Of a stretch of 64,000 bases of DNA, positions 50,905 to 61,395 are shown in pieces. The translations under genes and the position numbers were made by a program. This DNA is from Eubacteriales bacterium (GTDB lineage Bacteria; Bacillota; Clostridia; Lachnospirales; Lachnospiraceae): contig JAUNHC010000014.1 in the NCBI GenBank assembly GCA_030524175.1, positions 19,075-83,074 of the forward strand, given 5' to 3'. The notes beneath the pieces were generated by a model that saw nothing but the letters and a program-made list of their open reading frames with translations, made no database searches and was not told where the DNA came from. How positions within the stretch are numbered: position 1 is the first letter of the stretch; each line of letters starts with the position of its first letter.

Positions 50905-51543
50905 TCATCGAATCAAAGATAACCTCCCATTATCAATCTCATAAACATGACTGCACAGCATGTCAATATCTTCACGATTATGGCTGGCAAGCAAAATGGC
51001 TTTCCCTTCATCTCTCAACTTCAGAAAAAGCTTCCGCATTTCTTCCACACCTCTCTTATCCAATCCGTTCATAGGTTCATCCAATATAAGGATTTTAGGG
51101 TTCTCCATGATGGCCTGAGCAATTGCAAGACGCTGACGCATTCCAAGGGAATACTGGCCTACATGTTTATGATTGTGGGGATCAAGCCCCACCTGTCTCA
51201 TTATTTGTTCTATGTGCTCCTTATCCTTTTTATTTCGGATACGATACAAAAAATCCAAATTTTTAAACCCACTTTTATTACGCAAAAATGCCGGCTCCTC
51301 GATTATGATTCCGGCGTTCCCGCAAATCCCTTCCGCATGATCCGGAAATGTAATCCGCACACATCCTCCATCCGGTTTAAAAAAGCCACAGATACATTTA
51401 AAAAGCACACTTTTTCCACAGCCATTATACCCGACAAATCCTATGATTTCTCCTTCTTTGCACACAAAACTGAGATCATTAAGAACAACATTTTTTCCAA
51501 AAGCTTTTGAAAGATTCTCTACTTGTATAATCTCCACACTCAC
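50905..51543 (-). CDS. ABC transporter ATP-binding protein (left agr-linked module)
   Basis: 212 residues. Walker A GYNGCGKS, signature YSLGMRQRLAIAQA, Walker B ILILDEPMNGLD and H-loop LASHN are all present; Q-loop in IIIEEPAF. The type resembles ATPases of bacteriocin-immunity and antibiotic ABC transporters (BcrA/LanF class). The GTG at 51543 is chosen as the start because it overlaps the upstream stop (GTGA) and has GGAG upstream; the longer frame runs back into the permease gene. It pairs with the two membrane proteins encoded before it. It is related to the 55766-56407 ATPase of the right module. Confidence 0.88.
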   Translation of the reverse strand: MSVEIIQVENLSKAFGKNVVLNDLSFVCKEGEIIGFVGYNGCGKSVLFKCICGFFKPDGGCVRITFPDHAEGICGNAGIIIEEPAFLRNKSGFKNLDFLYRIRNKKDKEHIEQIMRQVGLDPHNHKHVGQYSLGMRQRLAIAQAIMENPKILILDEPMNGLDKRGVEEMRKLFLKLRDEGKAILLASHNREDIDMLCSHVYEIDNGRLSLIR

Positions 51544-58833: not shown

Positions 58834-59019
58834 CTATCCACCAGCATATCTCCTTAGGCAAATAAAGCTTATAAGAAAAATCACACTTTGGTAAAAAATG
58901 CGAAAAATCCATCCTAGCAATAATGTCATAACAATACTAATACATATACTTTTGCCTCTTTGCAAACCATAATTTATGATTTCATGTTTTTCGTTTTCTG
59001 TTAAGTTTTCTATATCCAT
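58834..59019 (-). pseudogene. Truncated AgrB-like peptide-processing protein
   Basis: 61 residues that match the N-terminal part of AgrB proteins: NEKHEIINYGLQRG, a first hydrophobic helix, a second one, and the family signature LRRYAGG. A stop codon follows exactly where active AgrB continues with YHA (catalytic His) and later the catalytic Cys. No clear ribosome site precedes the ATG, 1 base after the agrD stop. AgrB is an integral-membrane endopeptidase that cuts and cyclises AgrD. This fragment cannot do so; if the peptide is matured, a full AgrB must be encoded elsewhere. Confidence 0.8.
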
Positions 59020-59020
59020 A

Positions 59021-59155
59021 TCAATGTTTTTTTAACTTTTTAACTGAATTCAATAATTTAGGTTGATATGCAATCCAAGGACATGTTGTGTTCGCATCAG
59101 TTACAGCAATTCTTACCGCAATTTTCTCAATCAACTTTTTCTTTCCATTCTTCAT
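59021..59155 (-). CDS. AgrD-like cyclic-thiolactone autoinducer pre-peptide
   Basis: 44 residues: an amphipathic basic leader (MKNGKKKLIEKIAVRIAV), then NTTCPWIA and a charged tail beginning YQPKLL. This is the AgrD layout: Cys starts a five-residue ring (CPWIA here, compare CFMFV-YEPK in Listeria), followed by a conserved [YD]-x-PK tail. AgrB would cut after the ring and join Cys to the last ring residue. The start at 59155 has AAGGAGG at ideal distance. It lies directly behind a LytTR-type operator and before the truncated AgrB. Between it and the AgrC gene is a terminator, so sensor and signal are separate transcripts. Confidence 0.82.
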   Translation of the reverse strand: MKNGKKKLIEKIAVRIAVTDANTTCPWIAYQPKLLNSVKKLKKH

Positions 59156-59196
59156 CGTTATCTTCCTCCTTTTGAGACTTATTTGAATGTATTTAG

Positions 59197-59259
59197 ATAA
59201 TAGCATATTTTCCCTGTCCTTTTTTTCATTGGCGAAATTCATATATATTTTGACGAAAT
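59197..59259 (-). promoter_or_regulatory. agrD promoter with LytTR-type direct repeats
   Basis: Minus-strand extended -10 TGCTATTAT (TATTAT at 59197-59202). Upstream, ATTTCGCCAA (59229-59238) and ATTTCGTCAA (59250-59259) are direct repeats 21 bp apart, the usual spacing of AgrA/ComE-type sites on one face of the helix, about 40-70 bases before the start point. Likely target of the 60664-61395 regulator. Confidence 0.65.
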
Positions 59260-59299
59260 CCGTATATTCAGAGCATTATGTGCTATTATTTTCAAATAT

Positions 59300-59332
59300 A
59301 AAAATAGTGCAACTTATAGTCACACTATTTTT
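59300..59332 (-). terminator. Terminator after the agrC-like gene
   Basis: Arms AAAAATAGTG (59300-59309) and CACTATTTTT (59323-59332), ending in a U-run on both strands. Confidence 0.8.
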
Positions 59333-59426
59333 ACATAATACTTACATATTTTGATATAACACTCAATAAAACTTCAGACAGACACTACCATTTAAGTTGT
59401 GCACTTGTACCTATCAGCATACATGT

Positions 59427-60671
59427 CTAAATATACAGCATCACCCTCACTTCAAACACATTATCATCATCTGCAAATTCCATAGCCCCATGGTATTGTT
59501 CCACAGCCTTTTTCACATTTTCCAGGCCAATTCCATGTCCTTTCTCTTTTTTAGTACTTAAATACTTCTTTTCCTTTTTTCGCAATTCATGTCGGAAACT
59601 GTTTCTTATCACTATGGAAAACATTCCTTTTTCATAATCAATGCTTAATGTCAGCCACCTGGAATCTGCATGGCTGGCAGCTTCTATGGCATTGTCAAAT
59701 AAATTACCTATTATAATATTCAAATCAATGGCTGCGATATTCAGATTCTCTGGCACACAAACATCATAATCGACTCTGTCCAAACACTGTTTCGCCTGTC
59801 CCAAAAAATAATTGAGCAGACCATCCAGACTTTTATTTCCGGTGCTTACCAGTTCATGGGGATTTTTCATATAGCCTTCCATATCATCTATGTAATCTAT
59901 AATTTTTTCATACTGGTGATGATCTGCCATTACTGCTAATTCCCTCAAATGGTTCTTCATATCATGGCGAAGTGACTTCACCTTTTCTTCTGACTGAGCC
60001 AAAACATCCAGTTGGTTGGAATAAATAAGCATCTGCTTTTCAAACAATGCCCTTTCTTCCGCCTTTTGGTATGAACTTACCAATACGTCATACAAATAGA
60101 ATATAAGCAGATCAACCACTATAAGCCCCGCACTTAACAATACCAAAGGCCAACGGTTCTGTGTATTGATCCTCATAAGAAGGTTCATCATCCCAATACT
60201 GACACATGCGATCACTAAGAGAATATTCCAGTGAGGAATATTTTGATTTCCTCTGTTTTTCACCAAAATCCTTTCAATAATAAACTCGCTGACCACGATC
60301 AAAAAAACGGAAACGTATGCTATCCCCTCATGAAAGGTTTGGGTAACCGCATAATTTGTCAGCCCATATACTGCAAGAAAATCACAGCCTGCATTAATAC
60401 CGTATACCAGCAGAATCACGAAAATTTTCTTTCCCTGACTTCCTTCATATTGTCTGGCTATCAGATATAGCAGAAGGATATTAACAGTCATATTAGCAGG
60501 AGGTGAGTGAAATGCTAAATGCACACCTGAAGTCAAAGCCCAGAACATGATATAGCTAAAATACTCTGTTTTCTTTTCCAATATATCTGTTTTGAAAAAC
60601 AACACCATGAATCTATGTGTCACATAAATCCGCAGAAGATTTGTGCATAAGGTTGTAATAACGTCAAACAT
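59427..60671 (-). CDS. AgrC-like GHKL sensor histidine kinase
   Basis: 414 residues. The first 195 residues hold six or so membrane helices, as in AgrC peptide sensors. The kinase part has the phospho-acceptor His236 in SLRHDMKNH, the N-box NLFDNAIEAASH (Asn327) and the G-box KGHGIGLENV (378-386), all typical of the GHKL (HPK10) class. It should bind the mature cyclic peptide outside and phosphorylate the LytTR regulator encoded just before it. GGAGG stands before the ATG and the gene overlaps the regulator by 8 bases. A deleted copy of its C-terminus lies at 54850-55116. Confidence 0.9.
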   Translation of the reverse strand: MFDVITTLCTNLLRIYVTHRFMVLFFKTDILEKKTEYFSYIMFWALTSGVHLAFHSPPANMTVNILLLYLIARQYEGSQGKKIFVILLVYGINAGCDFLAVYGLTNYAVTQTFHEGIAYVSVFLIVVSEFIIERILVKNRGNQNIPHWNILLVIACVSIGMMNLLMRINTQNRWPLVLLSAGLIVVDLLIFYLYDVLVSSYQKAEERALFEKQMLIYSNQLDVLAQSEEKVKSLRHDMKNHLRELAVMADHHQYEKIIDYIDDMEGYMKNPHELVSTGNKSLDGLLNYFLGQAKQCLDRVDYDVCVPENLNIAAIDLNIIIGNLFDNAIEAASHADSRWLTLSIDYEKGMFSIVIRNSFRHELRKKEKKYLSTKKEKGHGIGLENVKKAVEQYHGAMEFADDDNVFEVRVMLYI

Positions 60672-61395
60672 ATTCGCCTCTTTTCCTCCACATACGCTTA
60701 GCCATCTGTTCTCTTACCTGCTTTCTGTAGGGCTGGCTGATGGACAGAATATCTCCGTTTTTCATTTTTACAGTATCATAACTGCATTCATCAATATGAT
60801 CAAAATTTATCACATATGACTGATGGATCTGAATAAAACTTCCCGGCATATCAGGGATTACATCTTTAAGCTTACCGTTAAATTCTTTATTCCCGTCTTT
60901 GAGAATAATATGGATTTTTTTATTCTGGCTATGAAGATATAAAATGTCCTTAACCAGCACTTTAAAATAGAACCCACCAGAATAATATTCAAAAATTCCC
61001 TTTTTCTTCTCCGTAAGCCTGATAACACGGTCCATTACCTCCTGAACCTTCCCCGCATCCAACGGTTTAATAAGAAATTCCAGAGGCTGTATCCGAAATA
61101 AATCCATAGCGTGGCTGCTGTTTCCGGAAATATAGATGATCATAGTATCCAGATTGTCCATTTCCTCCCTGATAAATCGTCCTATCTGAACACCGTCAGT
61201 GGTATTCAATTCAATATCCAGAAATAAAACATCAAGAATCTGTTCACTGTTTTTCAAATACCCGCACAAATTTTCTCCTGTATACCAAATACTGACATCC
61301 ATTTGGATTCCATGTTTTTCCCCGTAGCTATAAAGCATTTCTTCCAGTTCTCCGCCGATTTCCCGGCAGTCATCACAGATACCTATATGAAACAT
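60664..61395 (-). CDS. AgrA-like LytTR response regulator
   Basis: 243 residues. Receiver domain (1-125) with Asp60 in LDVLFLDIEL and Lys in EFLIKPLD; LytTR DNA-binding domain from about 140 (FYFKVLVKDILYLHSQNKKIHI, IHQSYVINFDHIDE). GGGAGGG precedes the ATG. It follows the DUF5107 gene by 24 bases. The direct repeats before agrD (59229-59259) are the likely binding site, giving a positive loop. The 27-codon remnant at 50619-50702 is a copy of its start. Confidence 0.92.
   Translation of the reverse strand: MFHIGICDDCREIGGELEEMLYSYGEKHGIQMDVSIWYTGENLCGYLKNSEQILDVLFLDIELNTTDGVQIGRFIREEMDNLDTMIIYISGNSSHAMDLFRIQPLEFLIKPLDAGKVQEVMDRVIRLTEKKKGIFEYYSGGFYFKVLVKDILYLHSQNKKIHIILKDGNKEFNGKLKDVIPDMPGSFIQIHQSYVINFDHIDECSYDTVKMKNGDILSISQPYRKQVREQMAKRMWRKRGEYV

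Follow-up and report, generated by a model that had tools for sequence, protein, structure and literature searches.

Genes of the agr-like locus

The window analysed here is a 64,000-nucleotide stretch of contig C87 from a draft bacterial genome (5.95 Mb, 119 contigs, 90.7% complete); the host genus was taken to be Blautia and the host a gut bacterium. It carries an agr-like signalling locus in which the receiver, a regulator and a sensor kinase, is kept together with the signal gene agrD, and in which the processing gene agrB is cut short. What deserves notice is that signal maturation is repeatedly missing next to a receiver that has been kept. An earlier note on this DNA had placed a regulator, a kinase, an AgrD and a short AgrB at 58834..61395, and we confirmed this set of genes, all on the minus strand. 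The LytTR-type repeat, the fifth gene of the adjoining ATP-binding cassette (ABC) operon and the decayed tandem array described below had been overlooked. In their order on the minus strand, the features ahead of the five ABC genes are:

63480-61420, minus strand, DUF5107 protein gene, ahead of the regulator
61395-60664, minus strand, AgrA-like LytTR response regulator gene, 243 amino acids (PF04397, 61.1 bits, cut-off 22.6; PF00072, 33.1 bits)
60671-59427, minus strand, AgrC-like GHKL sensor kinase gene, 414 amino acids (PF14501, 81.7 bits)
59336-59296, minus strand, A+T-rich hairpin of 19 pairs, a probable terminator, between the kinase gene and the promoter
59260-59231, minus strand, exact LytTR-type direct repeat GATTTCGTC-N12-AATTTCGCC, ahead of agrD
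59202-59197, minus strand, -10-like TATTAT, between the direct repeat and agrD
59155-59021, minus strand, agrD, 44 amino acids (NCBIfam TIGR04223 quorum_AgrD, 35.2 bits, cut-off 19)
59019-58834, minus strand, agrB fragment (agrB'), codons 1-61, 61 amino acids (PF04647, 51.4 bits, profile positions 11-68 of 185)

Below, G000 denotes the genome itself, other G numbers the genomes compared, L numbers the fetched loci, and C9 another contig of the same genome. For related kinases, the comparison drew on the best 80 of 538 confirmed matches in named genomes, each taken with the locus around it. Subsets were defined by the flanking DNA available: 57 loci with at least 5 kb downstream, 77 with at least 800 bp upstream and 77 with 400 bp after the kinase.

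The locus has both an AgrC-type kinase and a LytTR regulator, as an agr system should. S. aureus AgrC was the top solved-structure match of the kinase by profile (E 1e-6). An AlphaFold2 model from a 34-row alignment (mean predicted local distance difference test score, pLDDT, 75.9; predicted template modelling score, pTM, 0.48) predicted six N-terminal helices and a long seventh running into the dimerization region, bearing out the earlier description of a six-helix GHKL kinase. A regulator homologue abuts the kinase in all 77 related loci with sufficient upstream sequence.

An intact AgrD beside a truncated AgrB

The claim that the AgrD pre-peptide is intact held, as the sequence passed the quorum_AgrD model. 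Its predicted core is CPWIA, followed by YQPK, and a ribosome-site-like AGGAGG precedes the gene. The earlier note had made its case depend on conservation of the 44-codon peptide among relatives; counterparts were found, the window AgrD being 41-57% identical to each of seven other AgrDs aligned. Since AgrD and AgrB both exceed the cut-offs of curated models, the agr genes are more than a chance match.

The agrB' product aligns to the first third of AgrB and ends at RRYAGG, the 3' two thirds of the gene being absent. In an alignment with ten other AgrBs, the conserved His and Cys, which we take to be the catalytic residues, would be residues 2 and 9 past the break, and the aligned G086 gene runs on through both. 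The coverage of PF04647 and the alignment thus agree with the earlier observation that the frame stops after LRRYAGG, ahead of His and Cys, and no AgrB with these two residues is present at the window locus. AgrB matches covering about the first third of the profile were also seen at G120 C41:259292-259486 (positions 2-66 of 185) and G129 C1:4660448-4660687 (positions 3-77).

A hidden 3' piece of agrB in or behind the ABC operon was considered and ruled out, as a six-frame search of the window with pieces of at least 22 amino acids returned nothing beyond the fragment already described. Codon 61 of agrB adjoins the ABC operon's leader, and the sole other match in the genome to a 461-bp stretch across this junction is partial, an 82% relic of its ABC side. 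Because the window holds no 3' agrB and the junction stretch is otherwise unmatched, we infer from the sequence that the junction was made by deletion, rather than agrB being shortened by a miscalled base. Misassembly is unlikely as the cause of the short agrB.

The region between the kinase gene and agrD

The RNA fold of 59440-59285, which includes the hairpin, had a z of -2.0, and 11 of 200 shuffles folded equally well. A G+C-based terminator scan gave seven sites (shuffles: mean 4.0, standard deviation 2.1), six inside ABC frames and one in a relic module further along the window; the hairpin was not among them, and none was listed between agrD and the first ABC gene. The relic module carries a 76% copy of 59353-59295, and it is there that the scan lists its site (54779-54763).

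The weight of the direct repeat as evidence rests on its position and not on its number. With at most one mismatch, the pattern gave 31 matches in 23 of 64 genomes of the genus, against 22 matches for a reversed-pattern control, so by number alone the repeat is not beyond chance. Shuffled versions of the window held at least one match at up to three mismatches in 68 of 100 cases; the real site has no mismatch. Exact copies follow orthologous kinases, or lie in the same array, in G023 (one), G078 (one) and G086 (three). Allowing two mismatches of twelve, the repeat was found within 420 bp of the kinase end in 9 of the 13 closest named loci, with or without agrBD, and after the kinase in 15 of all 77 loci with 400 bp there, compared with 30 of 664 background stretches. 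Since a LytTR-type repeat that is conserved after related kinases precedes agrD, it appears that agrD, agrB' and the ABC genes are regulated together as a single unit. Three more exact repeats were seen in G036, G063 and G076, on contigs without a listed kinase match.

A complete AgrB at an unlinked agr locus

A search of the genome for a complete AgrB, proposed earlier as a check, returned two matches: agrB' itself and one complete AgrB at C9:79557-80066 (127.1 bits, positions 7-182 of 185). A candidate site of signal synthesis exists at this unlinked locus, but it has its own AgrD and kinase. The C9 kinase is 31-32% identical to that of the window, and the locus also has its own ABC operon. 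The corresponding AgrD search gave two strong full-length matches, one at C9 and one in the window; several others were weak or broken and lay mostly at C9. The two full-length AgrDs share 52% identity and have ANTTCP, YQ and VKKLKK in common, with cores of predicted limits that differ, CPWIA in the window and CPYYG at C9. Such a pattern is expected of related signals of different specificity. With agrB beheaded, agrD intact and a complete AgrB elsewhere, the two options named in the earlier note, maturation by another AgrB or eavesdropping on neighbours, are the right ones to weigh.

The C9 region (C9:76172-78919, L036) is itself another amplified array, with several broken agrD copies, repeated small secreted-looking proteins (126-148 amino acids) and lipoproteins (346-383 amino acids). 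Secreted-looking proteins of about 124-148 amino acids lie beside agr-linked ABC units of Blautia in L036, L037 and L040 and are candidate substrates or effectors; the one member checked had no Pfam or NCBIfam match.

Recurrent lack of an intact agrB beside related kinases

The window-type kinases form a set of 16 (L097-L109, the window and two G086 copies; the L103 and L104 kinases are identical). L097 lies in the genome of G023 and L105 in that of G078, which are 83% and 92% complete. An intact agrB lies beside 5 of the 16 kinases (L099, L101, L103, L104 and L108). In three it is broken: by deletion in the window, and near poly-A runs in L100 and in G086 copy 1. Beside the other eight (L097, L098, L102, L105, L106, L107, L109 and G086 copy 2) no agrB was found, within a downstream flank of only 1.3 kb for L102 and 4.3 kb for L107. 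L106 has no agrDB in 10 kb downstream, though its near relatives L103 and L104 keep theirs. The agrB frames at L033:6997-7401 (G086) and L100:11582-12126 break in a similar part of the gene, past His and Cys and near poly-A, which could reflect phase variation, translational frameshifting or plain decay.

A kinase tree of 28 rows places the window together with L105, both G086 copies and L097 (support 99/99), a group of five in which no kinase has an intact agrB alongside. Five rows marked as broken, two of them (L116 and L126) by frame length alone, would require five separate changes. The broken labels were neither more nor less clustered than shuffled labels and several forks are weak, so that repeated loss of agrB fits the tree.

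From 50 of the 80 loci, 47 whole genomes were searched for AgrB (L106 and L167 were outside the set), and 27 had one. Among the 12 searched genomes with a window-type kinase, none was found in four (those of L097, L102, L105 and L109), where incompleteness could hide some (G023 83%, G078 92%). In L098 and L107 AgrB lies only outside the fetched stretch, and the L100 genome has a full-length AgrB besides the broken one. Across the genus, 11 of 64 genomes gave a match, 10 of them over the cut-off. An intact agrD beside a broken agrB was seen at two loci, the window and L100, both in genomes with another full-length AgrB. At L038:7181-7375 (G076) there is an AgrD-like frame without a Met before the Cys; the genome, a Blautia 99% complete, yielded no AgrB.

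The ratio of non-synonymous to synonymous substitution (dN/dS) between kinases was 0.13 for G086 copy 2 and L097, neither of which has agrDB beside it, 0.18 for L103 and L106, and 0.19 for L105 and L097. The two G086 copies compared with each other gave 0.27, and the regulators beside both are damaged. Comparisons with the window kinase were saturated at silent sites. These few simple pairwise estimates suggest that the receiver is maintained by selection.

The ABC operon and its wiring to agr-type regulators

The agrB stop is separated from the first ABC gene by 36 bases (58833-58798), the spacing given in the earlier note. The operon comprises:

58797-58093, minus strand, gene 1, membrane-anchored protein LP1, 234 amino acids
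58096-57242, minus strand, gene 2, permease A (41 of 397 genomes in the family have a match, counting its own)
57255-56401, minus strand, gene 3, permease B (homologue after permease A in 7 of 7 fetched relatives)
56458-55766, minus strand, gene 4, ATPase (PF00005, 98.2 bits)
55776-55141, minus strand, gene 5, DUF5028-like protein (PF16431, 25.7 bits, below the cut-off of 29.9)

The membrane protein, two permeases and ATPase described earlier are all present; the fifth gene had been missed, and the assignment of the ATPase to the bacteriocin-transport class is qualified, as its best NCBIfam model, lantibiotic protection TIGR03740, scored 170 bits, below the cut-off of 309.75. At E ≤ 1e-5, none of the 63 other genomes in the genus gave an LP1 match; the L204 homologue of LP1 is matched by DUF5027. 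The permeases gave no Pfam or NCBIfam match at E ≤ 0.1, and a single-sequence structure model of permease A (pLDDT 46) was too poor to use. A homologue of gene 5 follows the ATPase in six of the seven fetched relatives and a like-sized gene does so in the seventh. Four of the seven related units are preceded by a small secreted-looking protein, and none was seen in the window operon. The unit probably exports, or protects from, a secreted peptide or small protein. The small proteins ahead of the units at L205:6216-6647 and L207:6265-6687 are DUF2712-like (17.4 and 32.1 bits, cut-off 22). In L204, the closest relative of the window ABC operon, the ATPase (L204:10218-10873, G384) lies in two frames.

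Of the 57 loci with sufficient downstream sequence, 24 carry both a permease and an ATPase in the 5 kb that follow the kinase, and in 22 of these 24 AgrB is absent between 3 kb ahead of the kinase end and 6 kb past it. An AgrB, whatever its length, was found near the kinase in 14 of the 57, and neither AgrB nor ABC genes in 21. As a control, in 44 loci with 5 kb on both sides, ATPases were found downstream in 19 and upstream in 5, and permeases in 18 and 2, respectively. Given these counts and the upstream control, the pairing of an agr-type regulator with an ABC unit is an established one, in many cases lacking agrBD. The earlier view that this wiring is unusual was therefore not upheld; besides the 24 loci, it occurs at the C9 locus, at G086 C1:1145259 and in three of seven relatives of the window-type ABC unit. 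In those three (L205, L207 and L210), a GHKL kinase and an AgrB-family frame adjoin the ABC genes. A regulator was recognized in L205 and L210, L207 has a regulator-like frame, and the AgrB frame of L205 is short (127 amino acids). The remaining four regions, two of which are short contigs, have no kinase and AgrB beside the ABC genes. The particular ABC type of the window, judged by the distribution of permease A, is rarer than agr-ABC wiring in general.

A decayed tandem array

Behind the ABC operon lie remnants of further modules, compared here with the intact one:

55105-54749, minus strand, relic of a second module: DUF5107 3' end, two kinase-end pieces and a terminator (49 bp at 88%, 86 bp at 92%, 120 bp at 89%, 59 bp at 76%)
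54563-50905, minus strand, second ABC operon: small membrane protein (54563-54327), lipoprotein (54290-53184), two permeases and an ATPase ending at 50905
50889-50641, minus strand, relic of a third module: 5' end of LP1, followed by the 3' end of DUF5107 and the 5' end of the regulator gene (119 bp at 82%, 100 bp at 87%)

No repeat pair was found at up to three mismatches in the promoter region of the second-module relic. The lipoprotein and permeases of the second ABC operon are homologous to those of the C9 agr locus. With such scraps behind its ABC operons, the window can be read as holding a module in one almost complete copy and two ruined ones, and on the sequence comparison the agr-like locus is the copy that has suffered least in a decayed tandem array. 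G086 likewise has two kinase copies, about 6 kb apart.

A proposed split, receiver-heavy circuit

We consider it fairly probable, from the gene content, that the locus is a split, receiver-heavy agr circuit, in which the receiver is kept and the signal is matured in trans or taken from neighbours. The regulator and kinase would form one unit, with the kinase still sensing a cyclic AgrD-type peptide. The regulator would bind the direct repeat and drive a single transcript that covers agrD, agrB' and the five ABC genes. The AgrD precursor would be made but not matured by the agrB' product; if the peptide is made, the C9 AgrB would mature it in trans, and otherwise the kinase would answer an outside peptide. 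For this strain, maturation in trans by the C9 AgrB is somewhat more likely than pure eavesdropping.

Several points weigh against this account. With one mismatch allowed, the repeat and its reversed-pattern control each have a single match in the genome. AgrB-AgrD pairs can be specific, and with kinases 31-32% identical, cross-talk between the window and C9 circuits is not implied. Chance can keep a frame of 44 codons free of stops for a while. As no AgrB was found in 4 of 12 genomes with a window-type kinase, the AgrD-AgrB pair seems not to be needed there, and the ligand may be no AgrD product. C. difficile RgaS is reportedly not the receptor of the peptide, according to the available text of PMC10602386.

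A locus that is a receiver only is less probable, yet quite possible; its odds overlap with those of the split circuit, because both share the kept receiver. The kinase would then answer peptides of neighbours, or a bacteriocin-like peptide handled by the ABC unit, and agrD would be a leftover. The absence or breakage of agrB beside 11 window-type kinases (8 and 3 of 16), the four genomes in which no AgrB was found and the 22 related loci with regulator, kinase, permease and ATPase and no AgrB nearby all fit such eavesdropping. Against it, this genome keeps a complete AgrB and an intact agrD with AGGAGG ahead, and some of the AgrB-less genomes are incomplete, as noted above.

It is unlikely that the locus is simply dead, part of a decaying array in which regulator, kinase and agrD have merely not yet been hit. 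Two neighbouring module copies are indeed reduced to scraps, and copy 1 of G086 has broken regulator and agrB frames and an agrD that lacks an ATG, while the regulator of copy 2 matches in its 3' part only. The exact repeat, the open kinase and regulator frames and the low dN/dS in two related pairs argue against a dead locus.

An assembly or sequencing artefact hiding a whole agrB is very improbable: the region is repetitive and the draft has 119 contigs, but the absence of 3' agrB sequence from the window leaves no miscalled base to blame, the agrB 5' half showed no further DNA copy that could have been misjoined, and agrB is broken in other ways in two relatives. Equally remote is a functional 61-residue AgrB', such as a leader coupling translation to the ABC genes or a decoy, since both conserved residues are gone and the first-third AgrB matches in G120 and G129, which with the kept start and operon position might favour it, were not seen beside window-type kinases.

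Returning to the split circuit, similar losses of agrB are seen in relatives, so such circuits may depend on signals that are completed at another place in the cell or produced by neighbours. More tentatively, Lachnospiraceae may contain a lineage of 'AgrC solos', in which the signal half has been lost repeatedly by different lesions, and regulator, kinase, LytTR promoter and an exchangeable output cassette, often ABC, have been kept. If so, they would be the cyclic-peptide counterpart of LuxR solos, through which gut bacteria hear the autoinducing peptides of neighbours and respond by export or immunity. Should receivers persist after signal synthesis is lost, quorum sensing by peptides in the gut would be partly a listening network and not self-sensing alone, and signal makers would be overestimated when AgrC-like kinases are counted. 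The window locus offers a clean test case, with one receiver, one possible ligand gene, one candidate processing enzyme and one predicted promoter.

Comparison with known systems

A literature search of one library, judged by titles and abstract openings, found no papers on agr loci of Blautia. A review counts agrA and agrB in 199 rumen genomes and, in its available text, names Blautia only as linked to quorum sensing (PMC10838665).

Like agr of S. aureus (agrBDCA), Listeria and clostridia, the window has a LytTR regulator, an AgrC-type kinase, an AgrD of the quorum_AgrD family and a member of the AgrB family, and paired 9-bp repeats, 21 bp apart, ahead of the signal gene; the paired repeats of AgrA share such 21-bp spacing. 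Unlike those systems, its agrB lacks the His/Cys part, the signal genes follow the kinase, and the agrD-agrB' unit runs into an ABC operon.

The ABC unit resembles LanFEG lantibiotic protection in having one ATPase, which best fits TIGR03740, and two permeases; LanFEG transporters have one ATPase and two permeases of similar size to those of the window. It differs in that the ATPase falls below the family cut-off, the permeases have no family match, there is an extra DUF5028-like gene, and no lanthipeptide gene was recognized in the operon.

Maturation in trans would resemble the case of C. perfringens, where VirS answers the cell's own Agr peptide though agrBD sits elsewhere. In the available text of PMC10602386, VirS and C. 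difficile RgaS, which give a split circuit its precedent, are AgrC-like kinases without agrBD beside them, and the window resembles these split systems (VirSR; RgaSR and agrB1D1) in having a kinase and regulator without a complete agrBD alongside. Unlike VirSR and RgaSR, the window keeps agrD and an agrB fragment beside the kinase (PMC10602386, same text).

In S. aureus, recurrent independent agr lesions, one of them in a polyA tract of agrB, are described, and such strains are suggested to be short-lived (PMC8768832, available text). The loci examined here are like these broken operons in that agr lesions recur independently, and unlike them in that the receiver persists across species and the lesion in the window is a deletion (PMC8768832, same text).

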